From: Lotus japonicus
Lineage: Eukaryota > Streptophyta > Magnoliopsida > Fabales > Fabaceae
Length of the DNA: 64,000 nt
Direction: 5' to 3'
Assembly (NCBI RefSeq): GCF_012489685.1
Contig: NC_080044.1
Location: 48,360,964-48,424,963, forward strand
In this document: in pieces, positions 20,101 through 41,483 of the stretch
Layout: each line of letters opens with the position of its first letter
Position numbering within the stretch: position 1 is the stretch's first letter
Made by a program: the position numbers and the translations under genes
Notes under the pieces: generated by a model
What the model was told of the DNA's origin: nothing
Seen by the model: the letters and a program-made list of their open reading frames with translations, nothing else
Database searches by the model: none

Positions 20101-20675
20101 ATATTTTCCATCATGAAGCCTCATTGATGCTACGCAATGTGCAAGGTCAGACTGACCTAAGCGAGAATGCTGAACATGTGGCTGAAGAGTGGAACAATCT
20201 GAGCACTTGGCTAGTGGCTCAAGTTCCCGTTATGATGCAGCTACTGAATGCAGAGGGAAGTCAGAGGATCGAGGCTGCAAAGCAAAGGTTTGCTAGAAGG
20301 GTGGCTCTTCATGAACAAGAACAGAGACATAAGCTACTTGAAGCTATTGAAGAAGCCAAAAGAAAGAAAGAACAAGCAGAAGAAGCTGCACGTTAAGCAG
20401 CAGCTCAAGCTGAACAAGCCAGATTAGAGACAGAACGACTGGAAGCTGAGGCTGAAGCTCTTAGATGCCAAGCACTTGCACCCGTAGTTTTTACTCCTGC
20501 TGCTTCTGCTTCCACTCCAGCTCCTCACGCTGCTCAGAATGTTCCTTCTAGTTCTACACAGCCAAACTCGTCCAGACTCGACATTGTGGAACAACGTCTT
20601 GACACTCATGAGTCTCTGCTGATTGAAATGAAGCAAATGATGATGGAACTTCTGCGTCGATCTGATAAACCCTAG
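17112..20675 (+). pseudogene. Sirevirus envelope-like ORF, interrupted by a hAT MITE and a stop
   Basis: The ORF starts at ATG 17112 (MVSQTRKATADATQF). It runs through a globular region resembling the conserved envelope-like domain of legume Sireviruses (IIITEKSFVNLLG, LPYFLFSYLKECIRKS). It is cut at 18139 by a 658-bp hAT MITE and resumes in the same frame after the 8-bp duplication. The second half is low-complexity and rich in Pro, Ser and Glu, with a Glu/Lys/Ala coiled coil at the end. A TAA at 20394-20396 interrupts it. The same frame stays open beyond it to TAG at 20673-20675, with similar composition, so the stop looks secondary. Sirevirus proteins of this class have no proven envelope role. 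Confidence 0.78.
18140..18797. mobile_element. hAT-type MITE inside the Sirevirus
   Basis: A 658-bp insertion with TAGGGGTGTTC at the left end and its inverse GAACACCCCTA at the right. It is flanked by a perfect 8-bp duplication, CCTGAAGC (18132-18139 and 18798-18805), as expected for hAT elements. Subterminal regions are packed with GGATTGGATTGG and ATCCGATCCGATCC repeats in opposite orientations. The centre is AT-rich and non-coding. Confidence 0.9.
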
Positions 20676-20783
20676 CTTTAGGATCTCTTCGTTTTGATTT
20701 CTTTTTCTTTACCTGTGTTTTATTTCGTTAACCTCTGGCTCTTTCTTGTTAATCTTTACTTTGCTCGTTTGTGATTATCTATG

Positions 20784-20810
20784 CATATATATATATATAT
20801 ATATATATAT
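20784..20810. repeat. AT microsatellite
   Basis: An uninterrupted run of AT dinucleotides between the envelope-like ORF and the antisense gene of the Sirevirus. Confidence 0.9.
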
Positions 20811-20893
20811 CTGACATTATGTTTGCAAATTTTTTTTTTATTATTCATCATAACCGCTTTTACATCATACATTTTTTTCTTTTTCCTAAAATC

Positions 20894-21286
20894 CTAGAAT
20901 GGAGGATCCCTCCTCATTCTTCTGCACTCCTGGCGCTGCTCTGACCTCTCCTTCTCCAGACGCTCCAGTGCATACTGGATGTTGTTGAGCCTGCCTTTTA
21001 GCTCATCCCTCTCCAGAATCTCTTCTGCAGTCTTGAGCTTCTTTTCCAAGATCTCTTTTTCTTCCAGCAGCTTTAGTTCAAGCTGGCTGAGTTCTTGCAC
21101 CTCCTCCACGAAGGCAAGAAATTCCCTCAAGTCTCTCTTCAACTCTGGACGCAGGTCCTCCTCCAACAGTGTCCGTGTTAGCTCTGAGATGGTTGTTGTA
21201 CCCTCTGGATGCCTAATGTTGAGAAACAAGTCCTCCTCAAAGGCTCTCTTTCTCAGCTCCTCTAATGCGATCATGTATGATGCCAT
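20894..21286 (-). CDS. Antisense coiled-coil protein of the Sirevirus (130 aa), homologous to 37753-38142
   Basis: An intact ORF opposite to gag-pol, between the envelope-like ORF and the 3' LTR. I start it at the MASY methionine (21286), not the upstream in-frame ATG at 21328. The second homologous copy starts at MASY, and the TATA box lies only about 50 bp upstream of it. The protein begins MASY..LEELRK.AF, contains RHPE and FVEEVQEL, then long Glu/Lys/Leu-rich heptads typical of a coiled coil, and ends RMRRDPPF. No catalytic motif, membrane segment or signal peptide is visible. About 57% of residues match the Tat-element copy by eye. I do not recognise a named family. Its conservation in two unrelated elements implies selection or independent capture of one host gene. 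Confidence 0.72.
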   Translation of the reverse strand: MASYMIALEELRKRAFEEDLFLNIRHPEGTTTISELTRTLLEEDLRPELKRDLREFLAFVEEVQELSQLELKLLEEKEILEKKLKTAEEILERDELKGRLNNIQYALERLEKERSEQRQECRRMRRDPPF

Positions 21287-21331
21287 TTTTCTCTGGTATG
21301 ATGTTGTGAAGCTTACCCCTCTCTCCAACGC

Positions 21332-21383
21332 TTTATATAGGCTTCACTTTCTCTCTAAAAGTTAATGCTCCTACAGTTTCTCG
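21332..21383 (-). promoter_or_regulatory. Predicted promoter of the antisense gene
   Basis: On the minus strand TATATAAA (21339-21332) lies about 46 bp upstream of the MASY start. A block at 21359-21383 (CGAGAAACTG... to TTAACTT on minus) matches the equivalent block of the second cassette (38225-38249) at 20 of 25 positions. Confidence 0.6.
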
Positions 21384-22065
21384 AGGTTAAGTTCTTGGTA
21401 ACTGACCCTCCTCTTTACTCCCTTGGCCGGTGGTAAACGTTCTTCTCTTGCATTAACTCTTCTATTTATTTCGCCTAACTCTGATTCATGCATCGTTTTA
21501 ATTTTCTTTAAACTTAGACCTTCTCTAAGGGGGAGTACCTTGTACTTCAAGCTAAGTTTTTCACACCCCAAGCTTTTTGCTTATGACAAAAAGGGGGAGT
21601 AAACCCAGTTTTTGATGTGTAAGATGTGTTAGTGTGATTTATTTTTCTTTTGGAGAATTTAAGAGTTCCACCTTTATGACCATAGATGTGTCACTGGGCA
21701 AATACAAGGAATACATTTCACTTCCTCTGAAGTGATTCTAATTTGACTCTGATACCCAAGACTCTGATACCTTGTCCGTGACTCTGATTACTTATGCGCT
21801 CTGATTACTCTATTTTCATCTATGTCATAAGTTTTTCACTCTGAACTCTTATATCATTTAGCTCAGAATCTAGACTTTACTAATGTTTTCATCAAGTATT
21901 AGATTCAGGGGGAGCTAAGCTCAGAATCAAGCAGTGACTTGAATTCAGAATGAGCAAGATAAACTATTCACATCAGGATAAGTTCTATTCTATATCTCTA
22001 AACTCTGAGTGAATTCAGTTTAATGTTTAAGAATTGTTCATCAAAAATCTTAGTTTTGTCATCAT

Positions 22066-22080
22066 CAAAAAGGGGGAGAT
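22066..22080 (+). other. Sirevirus polypurine tract
   Basis: AAAAAGGGGGAGA directly before the 3' LTR, the expected primer for plus-strand DNA synthesis. Similar GGGGGAG tracts occur upstream near 21530, 21594 and 21907. Confidence 0.85.
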
Positions 22081-23290
22081 TGTAAGATCAAGTTTTGATC
22101 TAGTAGTACAACTCTATGTTTTGATGATTACAAGTTAACCTTTTGATATGAACAATTGTGGTACTCTAACGTGTTTTTCCTGAGTGTGCTATTTACAGGC
22201 TCTGACCTCAACTCAATCTCACACAAATCAGAAGCACTGTGTATGAAGAGCGACCCAAGCAACGCTTTCGCATTCACCATGTTCAGTATGAACAGTGGAA
22301 AAGCTTCAGAAGTTCTGAAGTTATACAAACTCTGATGTGGACTCAGTCACTAGAAGTTCTGAAGATCCAGAAAGTCTGATAACCAAGAAACACTGAAGGC
22401 TCAGATATTCTAATGGTGTAGAAGACTCTGAAGATCCAGAAGCTGATTAGTGAAATTCTGATGTCCAGAAGCAAGATACTCTGAAGACCATGTACTTCCC
22501 TCTGAGTTCAGAATCAGAAGAAACAATGGTCAGAGGATCTGGGCTTTCCCTCTGACTCTGATCAACCGGCTTCCCAAGTTCCAACATGAAGCTTTCTCCT
22601 GATCAGAAGTCTCCTAGGTTTAAAGGTCAAGTCGCTATCCAAGTACAAAAGCAACTGTACCTTCCTGACGACCTACCTAACAGTCTCAGACACAGCAGAA
22701 GCTGGATTTTCCAGAACTGCCCTCCAACGGTAGCATTTCCCATGCAACGCTCAACCCTAATCCTTGGAGTATATAAAGAGGCTGAAGACTGAAAGAAGCG
22801 GCTAGAAGCATTCACATACGCGCAAGACAAATTCAAATTCTTCTAAGCTTTCTTATATCTGAAATTCATTGAGTTTACTATTAGCTTTTTAGAAGCAAAT
22901 CTCTTGTAAACAATTCTTTGATAAACAGTTTGTTTAGTTCCTTTAGGAGATCAAGGTTGATCGAATCCTAGAGAAGACTAAGAGAGTGAATCTTAGTGTG
23001 AGCTAAGTCAGTGTAATTGTTAGTCACTTGTAGGTTTCAAGTGCAGTTGTAACTCTTACCTGATTAGTGGATTGCCTTCATTCTAAGAAGGAAGAAATCA
23101 CCTTAACGAGTGGACTGGAGTAGCTTGAGTGATTTATCAAGTGAACCAGGATAAAATCCTTGTGTGCTTTTCTATCTCTTATCTTTAGCACTTAAGTTCT
23201 CGAAAGATTTGTTAAAATCTTTAAGGTGGAAGCTTTATCTTGAAAACGTTATTCAAACCCCCCCCCTTTCTACCGTTTTTCATACCTTCA
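22081..23290 (+). repeat. Sirevirus 3' LTR
   Basis: Almost identical to 10515-11721, with about ten substitutions and small homopolymer length changes. TATA box at 22770-22777. Followed by the target duplication TAAGT. Confidence 0.92.
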
Positions 23291-24261
23291 TAAGTCAGAC
23301 CAGTAGAAGTGAGGCCAACCATTTCAAGCAAGGGAATTTGGAATTTGTTTGTCTTGTATGTGCAATCCATGATTACCACATGAGGGAATGTGTTGAAGAG
23401 TTTAATAGCATTAGGATAAGCCCAGAAAAGTTCCATAATGACACCCGAATCTTCTTCATGTCTTTCGAAGTGAACATAGTTGGCTTCTGCCAACTTCTTC
23501 AACAAATATTGCATCTCTGTAAGTGGCCCGCGGTCTAATTCTTTAACCTTTTTGATGCGACTATAAACTTGAGTGATTGTAGACAAGTTACTTGGATTAT
23601 TTTCCTTCAAAGTGGCCAACATGTGTCTCGGTGGAACCCAATTATTATTCATGCTGTCGACTTGAACCTTCTCTTCTTCTGCTAGTCGACCAGCGTAGGA
23701 ATGGCCAACCAATGATCTAGCTGGTTCATGGTTGTGTTCCCCGTCCAACACTTTCAGCCACCAATTTCTATCACCCTCCGTAGGCCGTCCTTTAAGTTTA
23801 AAAGGACAACTACATTTTTGTGATCTGGTGGATTTGTACTTGAAGGACTTAGGGTCCTTGTACGGGATGTACACACCATGCTTCGAGCACCGCATAACAA
23901 TATACATATTTCCACCTTCTTTTGTATAATCAGACCTTCCAGTCACAATCGCATATCCATTGTTCTTCCCAACCTTCTTAACCCATTGTTTAAGGTCATC
24001 AACAGTATCAAATATCTGTTCAAGGATAACATATCACTTTAAAATTAATAATCAATTCAAGCATCACTAAACAATGGGTCTCCTAAACAATAATGTCATT
24101 ATGGTCTATGTAATGAATACCTGATCGGTCGACCATAAATGTGTGGTATCCACACTTATTGGTGGAACATTATCTTGTTGTTGAAGCAGCATTCCTTCAT
24201 TTTCATCATTACCTTGTTGTAGAAGCAGCATTCCTTCGTCATAGATGAATGTGCTCGTCAT

Positions 24262-24636
24262 TCTGCCTGCATAAACCAATCTGCCACTGGTTAACAGTCC
24301 GTATAATTAACATTCGGATCCCTCCGTACATATAACCTTCATATTAATCTGAATGTTCAACATTCGGATTTATATCGAGGCAGAAAGCATGCAGTGATGG
24401 TGGTGGCAAAAAATGGTGAGAAATTTAAACATAACATGGTGTAGAAAATTTAAACAAACGTATATATGTATATGAATATGGATGAAATGATACATATCAA
24501 GAGCAAAATGGAAGTTGGTGCTGGTTGATGAAGGTTGTTGGTGGTGGTGCAATGATGGTGGTGGGGGGTTGAGAGGTAGTAAGAAAAGAGGAGAGGTGAA
24601 GGATGAAGAAGAGGGTTGAGAGGGAGTGAGGGTGAT
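24262..24636. other. 5' flank of the MULE transposase gene
   Basis: Non-coding sequence upstream of transposase exon 1. TTCGGAT occurs at 24313-24319 and 24363-24369, the second in a GTTCAACATTCGGAT context that also occurs near the right TIR. These are candidate transposase or promoter sites. Confidence 0.45.
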
Positions 24637-26277
24637 TGATAAGTGCCAATTTTATGTGTTTTAAATATCATTTTAAGCACTTATTTGACATATATGCTTG
24701 CATTGTTGATTATTTTATCCCCATAAGTAGTTGATTTAGTAAATACTTAATTTTAGTATAGAAATAGAGTAAATATTAAATTTTTCACATTTAATCTTTT
24801 GTTTTCAATGATAGGTGAAAATCTATGAAGATCTATGCCACAAGATGTCAAAAGGCCAAGAAATGAAGAATTTCACTTAAGCCAAATGTTTACTCCCTTA
24901 AGCGAAATTATATGGTAGAGGGTATCAATTCTGGAAGACAATCTCGCTTAAGCCAAATTCTTTCTCGCTTAAGCAAACCATTCAGTGGCATAGAAGGAGA
25001 GTGAACCCTCGCTTAAGCGAAACTTATGCTTGCTTAAGCGAATCTGAGGCTCGCTTTAGCGAGACAAACCGCCTTGGACCCATATAAAAGGCCAGAACAC
25101 GATTTTTCTCGGGATCTCTTCCATTCTTCACCATTTCTCCTCCCTAAAACATTCGAGGAGACTGGGCTTCATGGAGGAAGGGTCCCTGGGCTAGGAGTTG
25201 ATGGAGTTGAGCTTTGGAGCATGGTGAGAACCATTTGGAGGCTATGGAAAGCTTGAGAAAGTTTCCGTCGCCGTGGATTCGTCTCCGTTCTTTGGGTTTC
25301 ATCTCTTCCTTTCTTATCTCTTGTATATGTTCTTTTCTATTTTTGTATCTAGAATGTTATAGCTTAGTTCTTTGATTGTTGTAAACTCAATTATTGATGT
25401 AAATGGAAATATTTCATGTATGGTGTTTCTCTTTGTACTTCATGCTTCTAACCAATCAATTGATAATCAAAAGAGCTTCACTAATTTATAAATAGATCGA
25501 GAGGTTGATATGAGTTGGTGTATGCTTAGATCAATGAAAGTAGAATGTCTATGTCTTAGGTCACGCCGTGTGTTAAAGTTTTGCTTTCTACACTTCAAGT
25601 ATCATTTATCTATGTTAGATTTCTATGGACTAGCATGAGATCGGGAGATAATTGCGGGTCCGGTTCAAGAGAGAAACCACTCAATGAAATAGTTGTCTTA
25701 TGGTGAGATGGTCTTAGGTAGGAACAATAGTGGGCTTCCACGTGACAGGTGGGGTTTTGAGTTCTAACAGAGTTTTCGGGGTGACAACGGAGATTCGCAA
25801 GCCTAGTGTACCATGTCTTAGGCTAAATTTGTTATTGGGAATGTCTATGATAGAGAATTTGAGTTTTAATGTTCCCTTTGGTTTTCTAGATGGTAAGGGA
25901 TTACGTCTAGGAATTCCAACTGATAGATTTACCTAGGCTAGAGATAGTTAGGTTGATAGCTCTCGACATCGTAAGTGAAATGAACCTCTACATAAATGTT
26001 TGTGTTCAAAGCAATCAGAGGATAAGGTGAATGCATTTCTGAATACGTGTTCTTCTTTGTTATCTCTGTAAACCTTCTATTACCGCTTTCCTTATATTGA
26101 AAATCACAAAAACAATTTATCAAACATCTTCTTATCCGCTCAGATCAATGTTTAACTGATGGAACTAATTTTCACATAATCTCTGAGGACGATAAACCCG
26201 TATCTACTTTACTACGTTTGAATCATAAGAGTTTGGTTCCAAAGCAGTACAAATAACAAGGAAAAAGCCCTTTATCA
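24637..26277 (+). mobile_element. Solo LTR (1641 bp) in the MULE
   Basis: Begins TGATAAGTGCCAATTTTATG and ends AAAAAGCCCTTTATCA, with a perfect GTGAT duplication at 24632-24636 and 26278-26282. Only one LTR is present, with no PBS or coding sequence, so it is the product of LTR-LTR recombination. The probable TATA box TATAAAA is at 25083-25089, just downstream of an array of palindromes. Superfamily is uncertain; size and ends suggest Ty3. Some short ORFs inside are not genes. Confidence 0.85.
24866..25064. repeat. Array of CTTAAG-centred palindromes in the solo LTR
   Basis: At least six variants of the 14-bp palindrome TTCGCTTAAGCGAA, plus a TCGCTTTAGCGA variant, spaced 20-70 bp apart. The array ends about 20 bp before the TATA box. 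A U3 enhancer or hairpin role is inference. Confidence 0.75.
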
Positions 26278-26743
26278 GTGATCAGAAGTGAGATGTAATG
26301 GGGGGGGGGGTGTTTGGTGGTTGAGGAGTTTCCTAGGAGGCCATAATGGTGGTGAGGTAGGTGAAGTTATGGAGTAATGGTGCTGAAAAAGGTGGTAGAA
26401 TCCGTCAGAGGGGTTCGAAACTTGAAGATCCATATGAATCTGAATGATGAAGTTACGGATCATGTCTTAAAGATCAATATGCAGTTAAAAATAATTTAGT
26501 TTTTCTTCCATTACAAGGGTTGATAAGTATAAAAGTAATAGATTTTACAATTATTAGGGTTGATTATAAAAGTGAAAAAGCAAATTACGAAATAGTTAAA
26601 GTGAACATAAAACTAATAACAATGAACATAACACTCACAAATTATGAAATAGTAGTGCGAAATAGTAGTGCAAAATACAGAGTCCCCTAATAAAGTAATA
26701 GTAAATACTAATGTCAATAAAAAGCTCATACAACTAATGTCCC
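26278..26743. other. MULE spacer downstream of the PMD gene
   Basis: Non-coding, with a run of G residues near 26300 and otherwise AT-rich sequence. No exon or repeat recognised. Confidence 0.5.
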
Positions 26744-27162
26744 CTACTGTCCCCTACCCCGACGACCTCCCCTACCCCTACGGCCTCCCCTAGCTCCTGC
26801 CCTGCCTCCCTCCCTAACTCCTGCTCCACCACCTGCTCGGCCTCCTGCTCCCACACCTCCTCTCTCAACAGCGTAAGCAATGCCCTGTGTCCCAGCCAAG
26901 TCCTGGAAGATGCGGAGTGCTCTCTCAGTTAGAGCGCGGGCCTGTGTGCCTGGAGGCAAAGCATCATCCACCTCAAGTGACAGGTCAAGGACTTCTAAAC
27001 CCCTACGCAAAGCAGCCTGAAAGTAAATCAAAAAACGATGTTAGTAAATCACATACAGAAAACCACAAGTGCATAAAAAAAATAGAATTAAAATTTACCA
27101 CGGCACTGAGATCAATCCTCCTCTCATCCGGTATGATGAAACAATGAGACACTCTGCCGTAC

Positions 27163-28578
27163 TGATAGCAATTCCGCAAGTGTACGGATTGATCGAAGTA
27201 ATACAAAAGATTGTCGAACCACAAGGATAGTTGTTCATCAATTGCTTCTAAGAGTTTTGTGTTCAGAATGTGAAAAAGAAAGCAATATAAGTTTGAGGGT
27301 TTGTTGTGTTTAACACACTTGTGATGAAGAGCAAGAATTATAATTCAGATAAAGAAGTACCCTGGACAAAGCTCCACTTAGTCCAATTATGGTTCTCAAA
27401 TCAAATTCTTATATGAAGTTCAGAATCCTTATCCATGATGTTATAGCCTCTACCTCTACTTGTTAATTCCTTAGTCAAGTAAATCATTCAATTTCATTTG
27501 CCAAACCTAATGCCTTAGTGCCTAGTCAATTCAATTGAAGAATGAAGTTTATAAGTTCAGGCCAACACAATAAGTTTCTACCCTTATTCCTAAGTGATAG
27601 CAAACAAATCAATCTAATCCCAAGTCCCTTAATCCTCACCAACTTCCGTTGTGCAAGAAGAAAGCAAAACACTTGTGTGCACTCAAGTGAATATTGATTC
27701 AGAGAAAAGATACATGGAAAAGAAGCTTTATTCATATAAGAAAATAAGAAGTTTAAACCATAATCAGAACTAAGGTTCACCTCACCCAAAGTACAAAGAG
27801 AAACTAGCCAAGCATGGCTAGGGAATTCATAATGCAAACTAAAGGAATAAAAACCTGAAAGAAGAGGGCCAAGAAGCCTCCCACAAGCTCCAAGAACCTA
27901 AACCTCTAAGTTTTGTTCAAAACGTTACAAGATACCTAAAAGAAATAACAAAATCCCTATTTATAGAGTTTCCAGCGGTAATCCACGCTCAAAATCGCAC
28001 AGTTCGCAACATCAGATTTTGCCACCACGCATGTGCGTGGATCCGACGGCGCACATGCGTGGGCATCAGGTTTTTCTAACAGGAGCTCCACGCATGTGCG
28101 TGGGATACATGGCGCACATGGGTGGCTCATCTGGTTTTTCTTCAATTTTGTAACTCCCACTTCTCCTATCATCATGGCTCTTAACTTAGCTTTCAACCAT
28201 CATCATTAGCCATCAAAAACCTATCAAACCTGAAAAGAATCTCAAGAAACCATCAAAACAACAATTTAACTCATTGGAACATGTCATTAATCATGATAAT
28301 TCACCATCCTTTCCTTCAATTCAGCAAATAAAACCCCCAATGTGCAATCAACACTCATGAACTCAAAGGACTTCAGCTCAAAACTGACCATAGGAATTAC
28401 TCTCTAACAAAACTAATATAAAGACTAAATAAATTGATTAAAAACACCTAAACTAATGCAGATGCAATTATGAAATAAAAATGGACTCAACTTGACTTAA
28501 AACTCAATAAATGACTCAAAAAGGAAAAGATAGAAACAAGAAGGACTCGATAAACATAGAATAAACCTCGGGTCATCA
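27163..28578 (-). repeat. LARD 3' LTR
   Basis: Minus-strand LTR with TG...CA ends. TATA box (CTATAAATAG on minus) near 27956-27967. Contains inverted CACGCATGTGCGTGG motifs at about 28020-28120 and lacks a 41-bp hairpin found in the other LTR. Confidence 0.88.
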
Positions 28579-29867
28579 CACCACTATACTCAACGGCAGC
28601 TTGTCCTCAAGCGTAAACTCAAGGTAGCTTGTCCTCAAGCACAGAATAAATCACCCCTTCTTCAGTTGCTTAAGATTTTCAAAACAAGATACTTCACAAA
28701 ACAAAAGAAATGTCAAATGCACACAACTAAAGATGAGAGGTCAGCAAGAGTAAGCAAGACTTCCAAGCAAGAGCTCATCAACTTCCTGACATATCAAGCA
28801 CTCTCCTCACATTTTGGGTGCTCTAACATCAAACACAATACTTCAGCCCTGATAATCAATCAATTCAAAGTTAGTTGCAACAATAACAAGAACAAGAGAG
28901 ACTTAGAAAGGTTATAACTTTGGCTAAGGTAAAGTGTAGGTAGGGATGCCAAGAAAAAGGGAACACAAGGGCTCAAAACAGATTTTGGGGTGAGTGATTC
29001 TTCTATTCAACAAGACCTGAGCAGAATTTTTAAGACTTTGTGACTCCTTCCTTCTTCTTTTTTCTTTTCAACTTTTTTCATTTCTCTTTTTCAATTGTCA
29101 AGGCACTTGCCTTTCTTTTGACAATTAAGCATGCTCTTTTTTTTTTTTTTTACTTTTAGGAATGAAGTCCTTTTGATATTTTCCGTGCTCAATAACAACC
29201 ACAAATCACTCACCAAATCTCAATTCACCATAATTCAGGGACAAAGAAAAATATTTATTCTTAAGGCTCAACTTGGGCAACTAAGGGAATATGATAACAA
29301 TCCAAAGTCTGAGGCCAACAAAGAACTACTACCAAGTCTCTTCAAAGAACAAGTATTGTGCAACAACCAATATGCATTTCAAAGCAGAGCTAAGCATGTA
29401 TAAGCATGTTAGGAATAAACATTGAGACTCTCAGCACTCAACAAAAACAATGGGGTGTTGAAGTGAAACACCCTTTCTTATGAACTGAAGCAAGTAAGAT
29501 CAAGCTACCTCACATTCCAATCACAATAGCATGTACAAAGACCACAAGATAAAAACATGGAAGTATCATCAACTATCAATAAGAAGCAGCTAAATCAAGG
29601 GTGAAACCACTTAAGCAAGTTTAGCATAACAGCAAGAAACCCAAGGATATTCATACCGACTCAAACGTAAAAAGAAGATAGAAAAAAAAAACATGCAAAA
29701 GCCTCGATGCACTAACTACCTAAAAAGAAAAAGAAAATGTTTTTTTTTTAATAGAAAACACTAAATTAAAGCAAACTCAAATTAAATAAAAAGCAAACCA
29801 AGACTCTGGTTGTCTCCCAAGAAGCTCAACTTTTAAGTCTTTGATAGACTTCCCCGGACTCAAAGTT

Positions 29868-30716
29868 CTAGTCGGGGTTTATAGCAAATTGCATTAGATC
29901 CTTTAGATCATGCAAATTTTGACACAACTGCATCATCATATTACCTGCATTTCCATATATCATGGCAACATAAATCAAATTAAGAGTAGAGGGTTTAAGA
30001 AAATTCTCACTAATTTGCTTCCATGGTGTGTTGTGAAGATTCCATCCTCTTGTTTGTTCATTGCCATGCTTTCCATTGATCCACATGTCCTTGAGATTGA
30101 TGCTAAGATTTGGAGTTTCCTCCTCATCTTTCTGCATTTTGTCTCCAAAGACAAAATCCTCTATGGATAAATCATGAACATCATCACATTCAATCACATT
30201 TTTCATTTGTTCACCCATTGTATTTTCACTTTCTGTCTCAAGAACATTGGTGAAGTCTCCTTTTGAGGATTCTTCACTCCGTGGCTCATCCACAATGTCA
30301 CTTTCATGGATAATATGTGATTGCTCTCCCTCCTCCAAAGCTTGAGGGCAGAAATATTCTGGTATCCCTTCAGCTATGGTTTTGGCTATATGTTCCAACT
30401 GAGTCTCCAAATTCTTGATGGAGGCTTCTTGATTCCTTAAGCTGGCCCTGGTTTCATTCATGAAACTTTGATTGGTAAGTACCAAATCAGCCACCATCTC
30501 TTCTAAGCTCTTCTTTCCACTCCCATGATATTGATGAGGTTGTTCTTGATCAAATGGTTGATGTTCAAAATCTCCATAATATTGATGACTTGGTAGATCC
30601 CATGGATTGAAATTATCATCACATTCCCAAAAGATATCGGGTTGTCCTTCCCATCCTTGGTCATAGTAATGATGTGGGTCATATCCATGGAATCCACTCA
30701 AATCAAAAGCATCCAT
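29868..30716 (-). CDS. Gag-related protein of the LARD (282 aa)
   Basis: The sole long ORF of the element, starting 114 bp after the PBS-side LTR. The N-terminal third is rich in His, Tyr, Asp and Gln. The centre (residues about 75-125, SLEEMVADLVLTNQSF through ASIKNLETQLEHIAKTI) resembles the C-terminal linker of Athila-like Ty3 gag. The rest is acidic and without known motifs. No zinc knuckle is visible. Probably a remnant gag of a derivative mobilised in trans; coding function is uncertain. Confidence 0.5.
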   Translation of the reverse strand: MDAFDLSGFHGYDPHHYYDQGWEGQPDIFWECDDNFNPWDLPSHQYYGDFEHQPFDQEQPHQYHGSGKKSLEEMVADLVLTNQSFMNETRASLRNQEASIKNLETQLEHIAKTIAEGIPEYFCPQALEEGEQSHIIHESDIVDEPRSEESSKGDFTNVLETESENTMGEQMKNVIECDDVHDLSIEDFVFGDKMQKDEEETPNLSINLKDMWINGKHGNEQTRGWNLHNTPWKQISENFLKPSTLNLIYVAMIYGNAGNMMMQLCQNLHDLKDLMQFAINPD

Positions 30717-30830
30717 TGAACCTTGTAAAAATCACTTTCACACACAGGTTAGTAGCACCGATTCAATGAAGCAATGGTAATAAAATTTCCAAACAATAAA
30801 AGTCAAGAATCAATCAACAAAATAAAACTA

Positions 30831-30848
30831 TCCCCGGCAACAGCGCCA
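30831..30848 (-). promoter_or_regulatory. LARD primer-binding site
   Basis: TGGCGCCGTTGCCGGGGA on the minus strand, six bases from the LTR end; a common PBS type of plant Ty3 elements. Confidence 0.85.
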
Positions 30849-30854
30849 AAAACT

Positions 30855-32311
30855 TGATAGCAATTCCGCAAGTGTACGGATTGATCGAAGTAATACAAAA
30901 GATTGTTGAACCACAAGGATAGTTGTTCATCAATTGCTTCTAAGAGTTTTGTGTTAAGAATGTGAAAAAGAAAGCAATATAAGTTTGAGGATTTGTTGTG
31001 TTTAACACACTTGTGATGAAGAGCAAGAATTATAATTCAGATAAAGAAGTACCCTGGACAAAGCTCCACTTAGTCCAATTATGGTTCTCAAATCAAATTC
31101 TTATATGAAGTTCAGAATCCTTATCCATGATGTTATAGCCTCTACCTCTACTTGTTAATTCCTTAATCAAGTAAATCATTCAATTTCATTTGCCAAACCT
31201 AATGCCTTAGTGCCTAGTCAATTCAATTGAAGAATGAAGTTTATAAGTTCAGGCCAACACAATAAGTTTCTACCCTTATTCCTAAGTGATAGCAAACAAA
31301 TCAATCTAATCCCAAGTCCCTTAATCCTCACCAACTTCCGTTGTGCAAGAAGAAAGCAAAACACTTGTGTGCACTCAAGTGAATATTGATTCAGAGAAAA
31401 GGTACATGGAAAAGAAGCTTTATTCATATAAGAAAATAAGAAGTTTAAACCATAATCAGAACTAAGGTTCACCTCACCCAAAGTACAAAGAGAAACTAGC
31501 CAAGCATGGCTAGGGAATTCATAATGCAAACTAAAGGAATAAAAACCTGAAAGAAGAGGGCCAAGAAGCCTCCCACAAGCTCCAAGAACCTAAACCTCTA
31601 AGTTTTGTTCAAAAAGTTACAAGATACCTAAAAGAAATAACAAAATCCCTATTTATAGAGTTTCCAGCGGTAATCCACGCATGTGCGTGGCCTCCTCCAC
31701 GCACATGCGTGGACAAAACGCTCAAAATCGCACAGTTCGCAGCATCAGATTTTGCCACCACGCATGTGCGTGGATCAGACGGCGCACATGCGTGGGCATC
31801 AGGTTTTTCTAACAGGAGCTCCACGCATGTGCATGGGATACATGGCGCACATGCGTGGCTCATCTGATTTTTCTTCAATTTTGTAACTCCCACTTCTCCT
31901 ATCATCATGGCTCTTAACTTAGCTTTCAACCATCATCATTAGCCATCAAAAACCTATCAAACCTGAAAAGAATCTCAAGAAACCATCAAAACAACAATGT
32001 AACTCATTGGAACATGTCATTAATCATGATAATTCACCATCCTTTCCTTCAATTCAGCAAATAAAACCCCCAATGTGCAATCAACACTCATGAACTCAAA
32101 GGACTTCAGCTCAAAACTGACCATAGGAATTACTCTCTAACAAAACTAATATAAAGACTAAATAAATTGATTAAAAACACCTAAACTAATGTAGATGCAA
32201 TTATGAAATAAAAATGGACTCAACTTGACTTAAAACTCAATAAATGACTCAAAAAGGAAAAGATAGAAACAAGAAGGACTCGATAAACATAGAATAAACC
32301 TCGGGTCATCA
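30855..32311 (-). repeat. LARD 5' LTR with palindrome array
   Basis: Starts TGATGACCCGAGG on the minus strand and ends GCTATCA. At 31675-31860 six CACGCATGTGCGTGG-like units occur in alternating orientation, just upstream of the TATA box (minus, near 31650-31660). The same arrangement is seen in the solo LTR at 24637, with a different palindrome. Confidence 0.88.
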
Positions 32312-34003
32312 CGTACCAATCCATGTAACCCCCCACTGACTCTCCCTCCTCTATAGCAGGTACGCCCTCAGGGAACAAGTACTGCACATAGTCTGTGAAT
32401 GCCACATCAACAACCTCAGCTACGGGAGATCTATCCATCTCACTAGGGTGGCGCGGGATCATCTGTATATACCCAAACTGTGGCATGACCCGCTCCGGAA
32501 GATGAGGTCGCACATCAGGGGGATAGGGACACCGAATGTAGCCTGAGAACAAAGCCCTCTCATCCCGCTGTCGCCATTCCCTGTGAGCCTCGTATGGAGT
32601 CCAAATGACGTCGTCTGTTGTCAACTCATCAAGTAGTACTCGCCTCTCGGCCAGCCTAGCATGCCCTCGTCCGTGACTCCGTCCACCTACAAGCTCTGGG
32701 TTGGTCCTCTGTGTAAGCCGGGTTCGCATATCGCGAACAAGCCTATCTGGGAAGTGCTCGAAGATCCAGGCCAACAACAGGGACGTGTAACCGTCCATCT
32801 GTTTGACCCCTCTGCGCGAGGACTGTCCAAGCTGGTCGTACAACGTGGCAAGGGCCATGGCGCCCCACACGAACTCGGACACCCCCTCAAGATTCTGTAG
32901 CATGCCGATCCAACGGGCGGAGAATGAGTGCCCCCCACTCTTGTCGGCGAACAAGGTCGCGCCAACAAGATGCATTAGGTACATCCTGGCTGCATGCTCG
33001 TACCGCCCCTCTACATTACAATGTAATAACCAGTTTTCATTAAGTAAACATAAATAATAGTTGGAAAAAGTTTAGATAATGAATGAAACAAACCCGTAAC
33101 AGCTGTCGGGTAAAGGTCCCGCAAGAAGCTGAACCTCATAGTCGGACCCCTCTTGTCATTAAACTCAGCCAGGTACAAATCTGCCTCCCCCCCAACAGCA
33201 AAGCGCAGGTCTCTGCCACATCATATCTCGAGGCCACTCCTGGAGTGTAAAATCTCCCACCAAACGGGATGTGAAGAAGAGCGGAGACGTCGTCGAGGGT
33301 GACATTCATCTCCCTGAATGGCATGTGGAAACTACTAGTCTCCTCATGCCACCTCTCCACAAGGGCCGATATAAGCTCTAGGTCCGTCTCTGCATAGCTG
33401 CACCTGGCCAGAGGATACAGTCCGCTCCTTTCCACAATCAAACGGACCTCCCTGTATTCGTCCCCCACGCACGTCATCAATCCGAGCTTCGTACCAGCAG
33501 TGGCAAGCCTCAAATGACCTCGGTCCACATAACGATGGTCAGTGGTGCCTAGTAGGGCATGCCACATCCACGACGCTATGTGATCTGGGTAATGCCGCAG
33601 AAGTGACAACTCAACCGGCCCACCAGGAAATGGTGGATCTCTCTGGAGCGGCGGCCTCCTCAGATCCTCTACCTCTACAGCGAACCCTCAAGCTCAGGCT
33701 TAGACTCCGACTCCAATGGCTCCTCGACTGCAGCACGATCAGGTCGAGAGGTGGAAGGCTCAGCAGTATCGTGGTCAGGAACCTCGGGGAGCGGCTGAGC
33801 AGGAACCTCAGGAATAGGCTGAGGAGTCGGTTGAGTAGGCTGCACAGGAACCTCAGGAGAAGGCACCTCAGAAGTCGCCTGAGCAGGAACCTCAGGAATA
33901 GGCTGAGGTGTCGGCTGAGCAGGCTTCGCAGGAACCTCAGGAGTCGCCTGAGCAGGAACCTCAAGCGTCGCCAGAGCAGGAACTTCAGGCATCGATACAG
34001 CAG

Positions 34004-34323
34004 TGGACAGGGCGACACCCCAGGGTCCCTCGCCCAGGAGACCCGACCTTGGGCGTGGGACGCGTCATGGCCTTGGGCCTCCCTTCCCGAGGCCCAATTG
34101 ACCCATTTAGACAGACTAAGAGCGCCAAAGCCCAACTCCACCTCTATAAATAGGAGGGAAATACCAATTGTAAGGGACTCTTAGCTCATTTGAGAAATAA
34201 TAGCATTGAAATTCAGTTATATTTTCTCTCTCTAAGCGGTTAGAGTTTCACTCTCTAAGCATTCACATCACTTTCCTCACACTTTGGGTACCACCTTCCC
34301 TCTCTATGTTCTAGCACGGAACA
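34004..34323 (+). repeat. Tat element 5' LTR
   Basis: 320 bp, TATA box TATAAATA at 34145-34152. Matches 41164-41483 with a handful of changes and is clearly related to 58146-58456. Confidence 0.9.
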
Positions 34324-34754
34324 TTTGGCGCCGTCTGTGGGGATCAAAAGATTTATTCCCAGACTATGTGGATTGTGATTCAGTGGAGTGAAGCTTGCTT
34401 TTCTGTACGATTTTCCTCATCCGGACTTGGTTCTCGGGTTATTGCGATTTGATTTCGAAAAGTTTGATCCTCTAAGAGATTCTCTGTAATTCGAAGGTTT
34501 TTGGCGGAGTTTTCGTTTTCATTAGCGAAGTTTGATGAAGACGCCTCGCCAACGACGTCTCTTCCCCGCGCACCGCAAGGAGCGATAGAAATCGCTGTGC
34601 AGAAGCACGTCGAGCGCTAAGTGACGACTTGAAGATGCAAAATGAGTGTTTACAGGAGCAGTTGAGGTACTATCACCTCCGGTAGTGGAATCAAGAGGAG
34701 GAGGAAGCTGCGGCTACGACCGGAACCAAGCCTTTCTCGGCGGCAGTACGAGAG

Positions 34755-35438
34755 GTGACTGTACCGGACGGCATGACGAACCTCGTGTTGGAGGCGTACG
34801 ACGGACAAACCAGTCCAAAGGATCATCTGTCTCGTTTTGATGCGAATATGGCGAAGTACGCGGTTTCCGACGCTGTGAAATGCAGGATGCTTCCATCAAC
34901 GTTTCGAGGCGCGACAAAGGAATGGTTCACGAATATGCCTCGAGGATCCATAACTAAGTTCCGCGATTTCTCATCAAAATTCCTTGACCATTTCTCTGTG
35001 AGAACGATCGAGGATCTTTTTGATATTCGGCAGGAGGAACGTGAAACCTTGAAACAATATGTGAAACGATACAGTGCCATATCCGCGAGGTTCGAGGAAT
35101 TGCAGCCACGCGTGTGCGTGTGCGCTTTCAAAGGCGGTCTGTCCCGGGGAGAATTTTATTGCGAGCTGAGTAGGGAGCTGGCATGCTCAATGGTGGAAGT
35201 CCGCGCCCGAGCGCAGTACTACATCTTAAAAGAGGAAATTGAAGCGCACGAGAGGAAGGGCGAGCGAGCGGCAAAGGTGTCACTGGCAAGGAAAATGATA
35301 CAAGACAAGAAAGCAAGTCGCGAGCAGAGGTTTGGGGAAGCTGGCCGGTTCATAAAGAAGAATAAAGGACAACTACTCCGCCCGAAAATGAGGGATAGAA
35401 AGCACTGGTGCCCTCGCCGAGAAGCAAAGGTAAGTTAG
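34755..35438 (+). CDS. Tat element gag fragment
   Basis: A 227-codon open frame with the retrotransposon gag core: MTNLVLEAYDGQTSPKDHL, FRGATKEWFTNMPRGSI, then FDIRQEERETLKQYVKRY. It forms capsid-like particles in family members. The true start is probably upstream (near 34532), in a different frame here, so the N-terminus is broken. A gag tail with a degenerate zinc-knuckle-like stretch (WCEYPNLEGHNTTDC) continues at 35508-35825 in another frame. Several frame shifts make functional gag unlikely. Confidence 0.7.
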   Translation: MTVPDGMTNLVLEAYDGQTSPKDHLSRFDANMAKYAVSDAVKCRMLPSTFRGATKEWFTNMPRGSITKFRDFSSKFLDHFSVRTIEDLFDIRQEERETLKQYVKRYSAISARFEELQPRVCVCAFKGGLSRGEFYCELSRELACSMVEVRARAQYYILKEEIEAHERKGERAAKVSLARKMIQDKKASREQRFGEAGRFIKKNKGQLLRPKMRDRKHWCPRREAKVS

Positions 35439-35852
35439 CGAATGAGGTCGTAGGGATGCTCAAACAAGGAGTTAGCAAAATTACTTCTCGAGGCGGAAAT
35501 TGAGAACATGAACAGAGTCGGCGAGCGCAGAAAGGACCCCAGAAGCGAGGCGAGGAATCCGCTGAGGTGGTGTGAGTACCCCAACTTAGAGGGCCATAAC
35601 ACCACCGACTGTTTCATGCTGAAGGGTCGAATCAGGCAGCTGATCAGGGCGAAACGGCCGCAAGAGGCGAAGTGGAAGGAATTTGAAGAAGCTGATAGCG
35701 GCGAGGGCGGAGGAACGGTTGAAGCAACGAACACAATCGCTGGAGGTTTCGAAGTTTGCAATGACGTATCGGCGGCGGGCCGGGAAACAGTGGGGGCGAC
35801 AACATCGGTACAGGTGTATCCATGACCATTTGGGTGCCCACATCCAGACATA

Positions 35853-36926
35853 GTGGTGTCGACCGCGGATTTCAAGGGAGTCAAGGCCCATACGAACGAT
35901 CCGTTAGTAGTAATGGTAAGAATAAAAGGTTTCAATGTACAGAGGGTGATTTTAGACCAGGACAGCTCGTCGGATATAATCTATGAGGACGCATTCAGGC
36001 AGATGGGGCTGACAGACAAGGTTTTAAAGCCATACACGGGAAGTTTGGTAGGTTTCTCCGGGAAGCAAGTTCAGGTACGTGGCTACGTAGAGTTGGATAC
36101 AGTTTTCGGTGTGGGCGAGGACGTCAAGCTCTTGAGGATAAAATATCTGGTCCTACAAGTCGAGGCAGCTTATAACGTCATCATAGGGCGAGGTACCTTA
36201 AATCGCCTCCATACAGTCATATCTACGGCCCACCTTGCGGTAAGGTATCCCCTACTTTGCGGAAGGATAGGAAAACTGGCAGTAGAACAAAAGGGGGCGA
36301 GGAAGTGCCATAGCCATTGCCTTAACCTGTATGGCAGAAAAGGAGCTGGCGACGGGCACAAGTGCCACGAGATTGGGACGTTTGAAGGCGGTGAAGGTGA
36401 ACAAGAGCGTTTGGGAGCACAGAGCCAAAGCGACAGCGACGAAAGAAAGGGGAGGAATCAGGGCAAAGAATCCCGTAGGATAGGGGAAGGCAAGCTCTAC
36501 GCTCAAAAAGATAATGAGTGGTATGACGAGAACTGGGACATGAACGCTACCAGTAGAGAAATACTAGCAATCGAGCCCAGACTCGCCAAGGAACAAGAAC
36601 AACGCTTGAGTGAACGAGTAGAGGATAATGTTGACCTCTTCAATTGGGGGAAAAGAGGAACTGTTTGTGGGGAGCCGCCTGCATTTGCTTTGCCCCCTCG
36701 GAAGGCAGGAAAGGGAGAAACTCATCGTCAGACCGGGAATGAAGGAAAGAAAAGAGCAGAAGGAAGGGGTAACAAGAGGGAGGGCGAGCAACAAAGGGAT
36801 GGGGGCAGAAGACCAACGAAGTCAGCTCGGCCCGCCAATCGCGAGGTAGGACAGGGGCAGATCCCTCGCCACGGCAGAGAAGGCAAAGAAGGCGAGGAAG
36901 ACAGGATGCTGGGAGTAATACTCTGA
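35853..36926 (+). CDS. Tat element aspartic protease, then out-of-family tail
   Basis: Residues 1-130 form a Ty3-type retropepsin region: RVILDQDSSSDIIYEDAF at the active site, YNVIIGRGTLNRL near the second motif. The equivalent active site in the element at 58146 reads LDQGSSADIIY, so Gly is replaced by Asp here. From about residue 225 a segment homologous to the pre-RT linker (EPRLAKEQEQRLSERVEDN) ends abruptly. A Lys/Glu/Gly/Arg-rich tail without RT motifs follows, consistent with a large pol deletion. Confidence 0.65.
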   Translation: MVSTADFKGVKAHTNDPLVVMVRIKGFNVQRVILDQDSSSDIIYEDAFRQMGLTDKVLKPYTGSLVGFSGKQVQVRGYVELDTVFGVGEDVKLLRIKYLVLQVEAAYNVIIGRGTLNRLHTVISTAHLAVRYPLLCGRIGKLAVEQKGARKCHSHCLNLYGRKGAGDGHKCHEIGTFEGGEGEQERLGAQSQSDSDERKGRNQGKESRRIGEGKLYAQKDNEWYDENWDMNATSREILAIEPRLAKEQEQRLSERVEDNVDLFNWGKRGTVCGEPPAFALPPRKAGKGETHRQTGNEGKKRAEGRGNKREGEQQRDGGRRPTKSARPANREVGQGQIPRHGREGKEGEEDRMLGVIL

Positions 36927-37752
36927 TTGAAAAGGAGACAAAAAAGCAAGGACCAAAATAAAGATGCACTTTTTTTCTCCGACACGGGAGTTTTTTAACG
37001 AGGCATCCCTCGATGTAAAAATTTAAACAAATCAAATACAAAAGGATATTCTTAGCAATACTCCTAACTCTCGAACTGAGACGGCAACCTGGTGGGAAAA
37101 ATGCCCTGAAGGTGGCGATCCCAACACGACCTTGATGTCTGGGGATCGCTCCGGAAATTCCGGCGCTGACCGTAGCCCCTGCAAGCGACATGTGCGGATG
37201 AGCTTCCCATCGCCCCCTGTTGGCGGCGTGCGCGAATAAAGCTCCTTATCCAAAGAACCTCCCCGAAATTTGGGCGAGTCGAGTCTTCCTGAAACGCGGG
37301 AAGCATTTTTTAACTAGGCCAAAAGTCTCGGGTAAACTCATATGGCAATTGGGCCCCGAGCAACTGTAAGTCCCCACCTAATAAGGCTGGAGGGGCTGCA
37401 CCTGCTCTTACGAGAAATATTGGTGCGAACAAAAGCCTCAGTAAAATACCGAGCGAAAGTCCTAGTTATACGTAGCACACTCTTGAAAATTACTCACGCA
37501 AAACTGGGAGACTAGCACTGAAAACACGTGCTAAGCGGCGATCAACGAAAGGCGAAGATAAGTAGCGGGCCATCCGCCTCGCCCGCTTAACTATCCTTCG
37601 CTCATTTAATTATTCATTTATTCCTTCATTTATCTGTTTGTGTCGTGACGATTTACTAACTCGGTTATTTGTTTGCTCGTATGATTCATAATGATGCACG
37701 TCAAAACAATTCAGGAAACAAAACTTTTATTCAAATATTTGACTTTATACAT
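36927..37752. other. Conserved non-coding block of Tat elements
   Basis: A region between pol remnant and antisense genes. 37066-37500 is closely similar to 63196-63545 of the other Tat element (shared GATGTCTGGGGAT, CCTAATAAGGCTGGAGGGG and ATATTGGTGCGAACAAAAG). No ORF is conserved, so it is probably regulatory or structural RNA sequence. Confidence 0.6.
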
Positions 37753-38142
37753 TCAAAAAGGAGGATCTCTTCTCATTTTCCTACATTCTTTGCGTTGCTC
37801 TGTCCTCTCATGCTCCAAACGATATTGCCTGTACTCTAGGTTGCAGAGTCTTCGGCTCAGCTCTTGCTTCTCAAGACCTTCTTCCACCGTCTCCAGAGCT
37901 GTTTTCACTGCTCCTATCTCCTCCAGCAGATCCAGCTCCCGCCGACAGAGCTCTTGAATCTCTTCCACGAAGCAGAGGAAATTTCTGAGGATAGCGTCCA
38001 TCTTTGGACTCAAATCCATTCCCAGCAGCTTGTTGGTCAGGTCGTAAACGTTGGGATCCTCCGGATGCCTAACGTTGATGAAGAGATCTTTATCAAAAGC
38101 TTTCTTTCTGAGCTCTTCCAAACAGGCAATGTAGGATGCCAT
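37753..38142 (-). CDS. Antisense coiled-coil protein of the Tat element (129 aa), homologous to 20894-21286
   Basis: An intact ORF opposite to gag, starting MASY and ending RKMRRDPPF. Shared landmarks with the Sirevirus copy are LEELRK.AF, DLF.N.RHPE, FL.FVEE.QEL, LLEE, and a Glu/Arg/Gln-rich heptad region with EQR.EC. Length differs by one residue. The body is predicted coiled coil, with no enzyme motif or targeting signal. The start matches the other copy and lies about 57 bp after a TATA box. The Tat element at 58146 lacks this gene at the corresponding place, so it was probably gained by this lineage. Family unknown. Confidence 0.72.
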   Translation of the reverse strand: MASYIACLEELRKKAFDKDLFINVRHPEDPNVYDLTNKLLGMDLSPKMDAILRNFLCFVEEIQELCRRELDLLEEIGAVKTALETVEEGLEKQELSRRLCNLEYRQYRLEHERTEQRKECRKMRRDPPF

Positions 38143-38198
38143 TTCCTTGAAGTTTTAGAAAGCAGATGAGATGTGAAGTTTGTTGCCTTTTGGTTCTT

Positions 38199-38249
38199 AT
38201 TTATAAGCCCGGTTCAGTCTCCGAAAGTTATTGCTGGAGCAGTTTCTCG
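38199..38249 (-). promoter_or_regulatory. Predicted promoter of the antisense gene
   Basis: TTATAAATA on the minus strand at 38207-38199, with the block 38225-38249 matching 21359-21383 of the Sirevirus cassette at 20 of 25 positions in the same order and spacing. Confidence 0.6.
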
Positions 38250-38510
38250 CGGAGTTTTTCATAGAAAAGGAGCGACTTGCAATAAAGGCTTGAGCGTTCG
38301 TGGCTGGTGGTCAACAGTAAACCGTTGGAATGTGGAAAAGAAGCACTTGGGCAGACGTTTGAAATTCCCTAAGAGGAACGTCCCGCATAGTTTATCTCCC
38401 GGCAGGAGGCGTACAATTAAGACTCATAGCAAAAGCAGTAAAAACTTGGGGTTCTCATTAAAAAGAAGAAAAAAAAAGGAGACCCTTGGTACAAAGATAA
38501 CAAAGATAAT

Positions 38511-40491
38511 CTAAGGACTCCTAACATTTTGAGTTGGCTCTACGTGTTCTTCCGTCAGGAAACGCTCAGCGACAAAGCCTGAAGGATCGTCGGGCCTGAC
38601 CAATCCTGTGGGTGTAACCCTCTTAAATGCCCCCATCTAGCTGAGATCAATCAGAGGATGGAGATGTTTGACTTGGGCTTTGGCGAGGAAGAAGCCTCGG
38701 CCGCGTTCAGAAACGGCAGCAACAGCAGCCTCTGGCATCAATCTTTCTTCTAAGGCCTTCGCGTCAAGATGGCCTTGAGTCTCCGCTGAGGATAGAAGAT
38801 CATCTTTCTTCGCCAGGTCAGATCGAAGGTTTTCAACGTCGGCCTCCGTCAAATCTATTTGGTCTGCTTTCGCGCTCGATTCTAGCAGCGCCTCCTGCCG
38901 CAGCTCTGCAAGAGTTTTCTCCAATTCAGAAATCCTCCTATCTCGAAACTCTAAGCTAACTTCAGCACGAGCGGACTGCTCGGCTAGCTCATTGGAAGAG
39001 GAGTTTTCCTTGGCGATCAGTTGAGGGGCGAGCACTTCGCGATCCTAAGCAAGTTGAGAATTGAGAGCGCGGAGGCGCGCCACTTCGGATCGTAATTCGT
39101 CAGCATCCTGGGCGGAGCGTCTATAGTAGTGGAACGCGTGGAGCACTCCCGCCACAGCCCCTTCAGAGACATTATCCAAACCACGCTGCTTAACAACTTC
39201 ATCCATTCGCGCCATTTGGGCTGATGTCAAAGTTAAAGAATACGGGAATCCCCGACTCACAGACCCTGAGGAGGGGGTGGAAGTATGAGCAGGTGGAGGA
39301 GGGGCGTTGGCGGAAGACGTCAGGTTTGGACCAAGCGGCAACGAGATAACTGTTGGACGGAAAAGTGAGTCGTCGACAAGACCGTGTTGGGCTGGAATCG
39401 TCCCTGAAGGCTCGCTGGAATTCAACCTTTTCGGGGAAGGGCGAGGATCCTCCTCGCCAAGGGGTCGTTTTCCGCTCGCCTGGATTCTCAACAGAGACGC
39501 CTTGTCTCCTTTCAAATTTATTCGAGGTGGAAAGGAGACGTTATTTTTCTTCTCAAAGGCCGCCAGAAGCTCCTCATCGGCACGGTGAGTTTGTCCTAAA
39601 AAAAAAAGAACAGGTAAGCTGGTAGAAAATAGAAAGAACGAGAGGGGTAGAAGAGGAAGATTTACCAATCACGCGAGAGCAGTCTGAAACGGCGAGACGG
39701 GCCAGAAAGTCGATGACAGCCTTGTGTTTAGGAGTGAGGGAGTCCTCAGACGGGTCAATTATTTGGCGCGCGCCCTGAGTCCAGTAGAAAGGAAATCGAG
39801 CGGTGATGCTAGGCCAGATAGGGTTGAAGTGCTGACGACCAGGCCTAGCTTCCAGGGAAACCCAGCTACGCTGCGGGGAGGGTTGGACAGATACGCGATA
39901 GAAATAAAAGAAGGTCGAAGGTTCAGGTTCCTGGTGAATCGTGTCGCAGAGAATTTCGAAACACTGGAGGAAGGTCCAACTGTTGGGATGAAGTGGACTA
40001 GGAGCCACATTGATATTGTGAAGAACGGAGCAGATAAAAGGGGAAAAAGGAAATTTAATCTTCAAATTTGTGAACATATACCCATACACGTAAAAGAAGT
40101 GAGTTGCACCCACGAAGTCGTCTTTGGGACGAAGCCAAGGGCGTTCAAGGGGTGAGCAGGCACTGACATACAGAAGCTTGTCAAGAGGTTTCTCATGACA
40201 AAATCCGCCGGATTCTGTGGAAATCTCCCAAATGGACGATTCTTTTTCCAAACTTGACCGTTGGTTAGGCATTGTCCCGGCGGGAGCACTTAAAGATTTC
40301 CAAGTCCTCGTTCGGAAGGCAATGACGTCTTTTTCTTCAAGAGGAACGCCTCCTGGAGGGGGCGAGAGAACAGGAGGAACGCACCGGAGAGGGGTGGCAG
40401 CGACGACATTACGTTTGGAACTTTTAGTCTGGCTCTTTGGAGTCATTACAGAGGGATTGCAAGGAATAAAGGTAATTTTGACACTGGACAA
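38511..40491 (-). pseudogene. Antisense gene of the Tat element (putative gypsy-type domain), two exons
   Basis: Exon 1 is 40491-39666 (minus) and exon 2 is 39595-38511, with a GT/AG intron of 70 bp in phase 1. Exon 1 contains FPFSPFICSVLHNINVAPS and LHPNSWTFLQCFEILC, which I match to the plant 'putative gypsy-type transposon' domain (PF04195). Antisense ORFs with this domain are known in Tat-lineage elements. Exon 2 has a Pro/Ser-rich linker and a long coiled coil. In-frame TAG codons at 39047-39045 and 38639-38637 interrupt an otherwise open frame. The C-terminus (KAQVKHLHP.IDL) recurs at 63737-63985 in the other Tat element without the second stop. Function unproven. Confidence 0.7.
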
Positions 40492-41163: not shown

Positions 41164-41483
41164 TGGACTGGGCGAGACCCCAGGGTCCCTCGCCCAGGAG
41201 ACCCGACCTTGGGCGTGGGATGCGTCATGGCCTTGGGCCTCCCTTCGCTAGGCCCAACTTGCCAATTTAGACAGACTAAGGGCGCCAAAGCCCAACTCCA
41301 CCTCTATAAATAGGAGGGAAATACCAATTGTAAGGGACTCTTAGCTCATTTGAGCAATAATAGCATTGAAATTCAGTTATATTTTCTCTCTCTAAGCGGT
41401 TGGACTTTCTCTCTCTAAGCATTCACATCACTTTCCTCACACTTCGGGTACTACCTTCCCTCTCTATGTTCTAGCACGGAACA
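41164..41483 (+). repeat. Tat element 3' LTR
   Basis: 320 bp, TATA box at 41305-41312, followed by the AGCAG duplication that rejoins the PMD gene reading frame. Confidence 0.9.

Follow-up and report, generated by a model that had tools for sequence, protein, structure and literature searches.

A short antisense gene common to a Sirevirus and a Tat-type retrotransposon of Lotus japonicus

Related antisense genes in two LTR retrotransposons

The window analysed here is a stretch of 64,000 nucleotides from Lotus japonicus (contig NC_080044.1, positions 48,360,964 to 48,424,963, forward strand). It contains two intact open reading frames (ORFs) on the minus strand, at 20894-21286 (130 amino acids (aa), P0001) and at 37753-38142 (129 aa, P0002). 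Each lies antisense between the internal genes and the 3' long terminal repeat (LTR) of a retrotransposon. The first carrier, SIRE_A, is assigned to the Sireviruses (Ty1/copia) and the second to the Tat/Retand-type elements (Ty3); we refer to the Sirevirus and Tat versions of the antisense gene. A preliminary description of this DNA had reported two minus-strand ORFs of 130 and 129 codons, about 57% identical and placed in this way in elements of different superfamilies. The coordinates, BLASTP and the domains and LTRs of the carriers agree with it.

The two proteins aligned end to end with one gap, 74 of 130 residues being identical (57%; BLASTP, E 4e-48), and the coding DNA was 66% identical over 395 bp. 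E, L, K and R are abundant in both proteins, so that their likeness might be suspected to be due to chance, or to low complexity in two coiled coils. However, the alignment score of 359 exceeds the highest value, 73, obtained in 1000 composition-keeping shuffles, which leaves such a coincidence a negligible probability. The preliminary description had also allowed for a likeness confined to the coiled coil. Residues 1-60 alone scored 160 (maximum 45 in 1000 shuffles); since they beat all shuffles, the likeness is more than a shared coiled coil.

SIRE_A is a 12.8-kb element on the plus strand (10515-23290), with LTRs at 10515-11721 and 22081-23290 that are 99.0% identical. Its ends, its target site duplication (TSD, TAAGT) and its primer-binding site were located. 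It carries gag and pol domains, with integrase before reverse transcriptase (RT) in one ORF (rve at residues 179-280, RVT_2 at 529-772). Two env-like ORFs on the plus strand (16953-18242 and 18930-20396, together spanning 16953-20396) precede the antisense gene; their Transposase_32 match, at 43.5 bits, falls just short of the cut-off of 45. After env, four AGGGGGAG tracts were found, near 21528, 21592, 21907 and 22071, the last one 10 bp before the 3' LTR (22081). Several AGGGGGAG tracts, or repeated polypurine tracts (PPTs), in the linker after env are the rule in Sireviruses (PMC2829016). By its copia domain order and these tracts, the first carrier is classed as a Sirevirus.

The second carrier is a 7.5-kb element on the plus strand (34004-41483). 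Its LTRs (34004-34323 and 41164-41483) are 95.3% identical, and its TSD, AGCAG, is less telling because it sits in a tandem repeat. A Ty3-type gag (PF03732) was detected, as was an antisense PF04195 (TRP28) domain at 39574-40488 on the minus strand (32.1 bits, cut-off 26.2). The latter belongs to a broken antisense ORF region at 38511-40491, minus strand, which adjoins the gene. A scan of ORFs of at least 120 aa found no RT, RNase H or integrase in this element. Its LTRs share 86-87% identity with those of a third element, also on the plus strand, which begins at 58145, reaches the window's end at 64000 and is completed in the next 9 kb to the right (L029), where it ends at L029:3947. This third element contains RT, RNase H and integrase in Ty3 order, and its 3' LTR (L029:3636-3947) is 98.4% identical to its 5' LTR. 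The second carrier is called Tat/Retand-type because of its antisense TRP28 and the relation of its LTRs to those of an element with a Ty3 pol.

The third element lacks the antisense gene, as the preliminary description had stated for the Tat element at 58146: read as a whole, through its 3' LTR beyond the window, it gave no match to nine family proteins at E<=1. No PF04195 domain was detected at E<=0.01 in its antisense frame (L029:240-1274). Homology between the two Tat elements stops at 37480/63544 in blastn. It returns at about 38511/63737, judged by eye from the C-termini of the antisense frames, and in blastn from 38656/63858. Thus, about 1030 bp containing the gene (37481-38510) in one element stand against about 190 unrelated bp (63545-63736) in the other. 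This bears on inheritance of the gene from a common copia/gypsy ancestor, which would account for the same position in both carriers. That explanation is very improbable: a split known to be so old would have left much less than 57% protein and 66% DNA identity, and one Tat element is without the gene.

A further copy was found right of the window in a second Sirevirus lineage, SIRE_B, which lies in the opposite orientation (L029:4941-9000) and carries the gene at L029:7027-7416, antisense to its env ORF. The SIRE_B protein is 73% identical to P0001 and 58% identical to the Tat version.

The likeness of the genes extends upstream of the coding region. The putative leader and promoter regions, both on the minus strand, lie at 21287-21480 in SIRE_A, with a TATA box at 21332-21339, and at 38143-38315 in the Tat element. 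Counted before the ATG in SIRE_A, SIRE_B and the Tat element, respectively, the TATA box lies at 53, 62 and 63 bp, GAGAAACTG at 96, 105 and 106 bp, and ACCACC at 148, 157 and 169 bp. The motif order is the same in all three, and each has CTTCACA 3' of the TATA box. An upstream block of 35 bp common to both versions matched at 27 positions, a score reached in 1 of 1000 dinucleotide shuffles, and the 300 bp upstream, aligned globally, scored better than all 300 shuffles. The preliminary description had placed a TATA box about 50-60 bp before each ATG, a 25-bp block with 20 matches beyond it and a GGC-GGTGGT motif further out. The distances measured are close to the first of these, the shorter block falls within the 35-bp block, and ACCACC/GGTGGT occurs in both elements. 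It had also proposed aligning the flanks for the ends of a cassette. Upstream, the flanks share the 35-bp block and the similar spacing; on the 3' side, the likeness of the 300 bp downstream of both genes was at chance level (495 of 1000 shuffles reached the score). AATAAA, a poly(A)-type signal, follows 52 and 22 nt past the stop codons of the Sirevirus and Tat versions. With the promoter-like core, these signals give the locus the look of a complete antisense transcription unit. At the level of sequence, one gene family is present in two superfamilies, and the shared unit includes the promoter-like core.

The antisense gene codes for a protein under purifying selection in Sireviruses

The host assembly (553.7 Mb, 65 contigs) was searched with P0001, and the best 150 of 4451 first-look candidates were scored. 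The genome holds at least 150 copies of the Sirevirus version, those listed being 92-100% identical over residues 1-130. Among these 150 best-scoring copies, 138 had no stop codon and 12 had one. Loci were fetched in 28 rows, representing 25 distinct places with the window's own copy included; 27 of the 28 had no stop in the gene. The order env region, antisense gene, 3' LTR was also found in 27 of 28 rows, and in the remaining one (L018) an insertion shifts the LTR outside the stretch.

The mean ratio of nonsynonymous to synonymous differences (pN/pS) was 0.19 in 190 pairs from 20 distinct intact Sirevirus coding sequences. Between SIRE_A and SIRE_B, the corresponding substitution rates were dN 0.158 and dS 0.99 (dN/dS 0.16). 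The Sirevirus and Tat versions gave a pN/pS of 0.37 (bootstrap 0.27-0.50), with dN 0.32 and a saturated dS of about 2.1. Neutral evolution to the same nucleotide divergence was simulated, and ATG and open frame were kept in 61 of 20000 runs. Protein identity in the 2000 runs measured averaged 38% and did not exceed 54%, compared with the 57% observed. An overlapping sense ORF (20979-21365) was considered as the real gene and ruled out, as the Tat copy has three stops in this frame, the one with coinciding third positions. The kept frames, the low pN/pS and the three Tat stops in the sense frame indicate that the antisense gene codes for a protein, and in Sireviruses this protein is under purifying selection. 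A dN/dS near 1 and a lack of homologues elsewhere, both raised beforehand as outcomes that would speak against the gene, did not occur: the ratios lie well below 1, and homologues exist in the genome copies and the second Sirevirus lineage.

The antisense RNA rather than the protein might be what matters, by pairing with the genomic RNA and so feeding silencing or blocking expression. The antisense position and the promoter-like stretch would fit such a role, and double-stranded RNA has been proposed for ORFs of this kind (PMC7264820). However, selection acts at the protein level (pN/pS 0.19, dN/dS 0.16) and the frames stay open against the neutral simulation, which makes an RNA-only role unlikely. 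The antisense RNA may act in addition to the protein.

Three protein searches yielded seven relatives (P0003-P0009) of 81 to 130 aa, without other domains. The second search scored the best 7997 word-sharing candidates, and the third used six of the nine sequences in shortened form. The longest contigs of the relatives measure 483 to 1102 bases and hence provide no genomic context. P0003 and P0009 are named Bradyrhizobium sp. TM233 and differ by two residues in their overlap; plant DNA within that assembly is probably the explanation. In the tree, SIRE_B grouped with P0001, P0003 and P0004, and P0006 and P0008 grouped with the Tat version, P0008 on a long branch; P0007 fell between.

Pfam searches at E<=1 assigned neither P0001 nor P0002 to a family, P0001 having just two chance matches below the cut-off, and PF04195 matched neither protein at this threshold. 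A sequence-profile search of the PDB returned just two matches (E 0.6 and 0.81). With Foldseek, neither the PDB (191 matches at E<=10) nor BFVD (302 at E<=10) yielded a match at E<=0.001. Pattern searches for related loci picked out 80 stretches in viral contigs and 109 in genome contigs, none of which was confirmed, and tblastn of P0001 against plasmids gave no match. The virion-associated protein of pararetroviruses, which is of similar length, was also considered; no Pfam match speaks for it, though the proteins were not compared directly. AlphaFold, run with nine sequences, predicted helices at residues 2-15, 20-25, 32-40, 46-85 and 90-125 (mean predicted local distance difference test 81, predicted template modelling score 0.65). 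In this model, helices 46-85 and 90-125 could form a hairpin.

Probable exchange among Sireviruses and between superfamilies

SIRE_A and SIRE_B do not differ evenly along their length. Differences amounted to 22.9% in the gene, 19.2% in the non-coding linker before it and 13.0% in the env ORF, compared with 7.4% in the promoter, 4.2% in the linker towards the LTR and 4.5% in the LTR. At synonymous sites, the difference was 0.55 for the gene, compared with 0.28 for the env ORF (Fisher p 1e-5). Different parts of the two elements thus appear to be of unequal age, and the transition falls abruptly within the antisense gene's leader. In a mosaic test of four copies against SIRE_A, each copy showed a divergent segment unmatched in 2000 permutations; the copies had been chosen by gene difference, the permutation assumes an even rate, and a hypervariable AT repeat lies at about 20770-20830. 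Left edges of the segments fell at 19017, 20202, 20677 and 20692, and right edges lay close to the TATA box, at 21318-21358. We infer exchange of the gene region between Sirevirus lineages, mainly from the synonymous difference between gene and env.

Several Sirevirus copies, such as those at L019, L020, L022 and L025, diverge from SIRE_A chiefly around the antisense gene (window positions 20651-21480).

The interpretation that we prefer, with a probability of roughly 0.72, is that the antisense gene encodes a small accessory protein, is driven by a promoter of its own, has been maintained by selection and was swapped between the two superfamilies in the distant past. The gene would have moved between a Sirevirus and a Tat element, and since dS is saturated at about 2.1, such a transfer would be old. 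The most likely route would be template switching between packaged RNAs, which would preserve orientation and position. In Triticeae, fusion of two LTR retrotransposons by template switching has been proposed (PMC1950507); such a process would take an antisense gene with it, orientation unchanged. Between Sirevirus lineages, the gene region would still be exchanged.

Alternatively, the Sirevirus and the Tat element could each have captured a plant gene, or a gene of a third mobile element, together with its promoter. The versions are indeed as distant as old paralogues (dS about 2.1), and a host copy would stay hidden where the best 150 of 4451 candidates were scored. However, two separate captures would have to arrive at an identical antisense orientation and position in both carriers. 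The seven relatives have no other domains, and no Pfam family was found. Separate capture is thus clearly the less probable course, though the most serious competitor among those considered.

The preliminary description had proposed a transferable antisense gene with its own promoter. Of this, the analysis supports a single gene family in two superfamilies with the same antisense placement, a common promoter-like block, presence and absence among Tat elements, and selection on the protein; a direct passage between the superfamilies, rather than two gains from a third source, is the probable course. Several points weigh against our preferred interpretation. The own promoter, and expression of the gene, are read from promoter-like sequence. 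The promoters of SIRE_A and SIRE_B are near copies (7.4% different), so that effectively two independent promoters are compared across the superfamilies. For the Tat version, a single element is known, and its pol and TRP28 are disrupted. The 150 listed genome copies are the best-scoring ones and therefore biased towards intact genes. The protein collection yielded no plant-named entries and says little on host genes, a point that favours separate capture and leaves some probability to a host gene as the source. Finally, the divergent block between SIRE_A and SIRE_B takes in non-coding linker and is therefore wider than the gene; in part, it may reflect uneven rates.

Under the preferred interpretation, the gene product would be helical, would probably form oligomers and would act in trans. 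Its production would not depend on the LTR and might continue while the LTR is silenced. The protein would tune element expression, silencing or particle assembly. Relief from silencing, or its tuning, is a tentative first guess at the role of the protein and fits an LTR-independent promoter. A gene confined to retroelements, spreading as a cassette of promoter and coding region and serving as a counter-silencing or regulatory module that elements gain and lose, is likewise conceivable, though we would not count on it.

Other features of the window were noted. Direct repeats of about 1.4 kb at 27163-28579 and 30855-32312, 98.8-99.3% identical and about 2.3 kb apart, are probably the LTRs of a short non-autonomous element. 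A tandem array at 3442-4633 has a unit of about 226 bp, with copies up to about 98% identical. The minus-strand ORF at 23221-23946 (241 aa), which overlaps the end of the SIRE_A 3' LTR, presumably resembles a FAR1/MULE-type protein, and the minus-strand ORFs at 32220-33609 adjoining the gene-bearing Tat element presumably resemble a plant mobile domain protein.

Comparison with known antisense and accessory genes

Antisense accessory genes of plant retrotransposons are described as frequent and conserved, with origin and function open (PMC7264820, PMC11963269). Antisense additional ORFs are known in Ty3 elements of Tat/Retand type, including gene23 of maize Grande, rice RIRE2 and ORF4 of Silene Retand (PMC7264820, PMC11963269). 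Grande gene23 has a promoter of its own, from which it is transcribed, and the product is found in the nucleus (PMC7264820). Like the gene described here, these ORFs lie antisense between pol and the 3' LTR and are conserved, with unknown function. Unlike them, the present gene also occurs in a copia Sirevirus. Moreover, the ORFs surveyed were at least 600 bp long, or shorter with TRP28 (PMC11963269), whereas this gene has 390 bp and neither TRP28 nor another Pfam domain.

In common bean, another legume, ORF2 lies antisense before the 3' LTR in 15 Ty3-gypsy families, with an SMC-type match in some (PMC4093653). As described there, it differs from the present gene in its length (211-939 aa) and in its restriction to Ty3 elements; in the two copia families of bean, the extra ORF is env-like (PMC4093653). 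Among Sireviruses, the carrier type found here, with repeated PPTs in the linker, is described, and the Lotus element tabulated as Lotus2 has a 1.22-kb LTR and a 1.68-kb linker (PMC2829016). The linker is treated as non-coding, and the word antisense is absent from that paper. The HBZ gene of HTLV is an antisense retroelement gene with a regulatory role (PMC11963269), comparable by analogy in its working only. In the literature searched, which was partial, no antisense gene in a Sirevirus was described, nor one common to copia and gypsy elements.

Sharing of accessory genes between element classes has a parallel in bdelloid rotifers, where the same type of ORF3 gene occurs in LTR and Penelope-like elements and is read as gene sharing (PMC5408684). 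Those genes encode esterases or exonucleases in another kingdom, and antisense placement goes unmentioned in the abstract. For Lotus, the two superfamilies, the protein-level selection and the presence or absence in Tat elements suggest that elements as such benefit from genes of this kind and can exchange them, and that retrotransposons of unrelated families pass accessory genes to one another. Being small and single-domain, the protein lends itself to direct tests in a model legume. Altogether, antisense accessory ORFs at this position in Ty3 Tat-type elements and gene sharing across classes in rotifers were already known; what appears new, judged by the literature searched, is a short antisense gene in a Sirevirus that a Tat-type element also carries.

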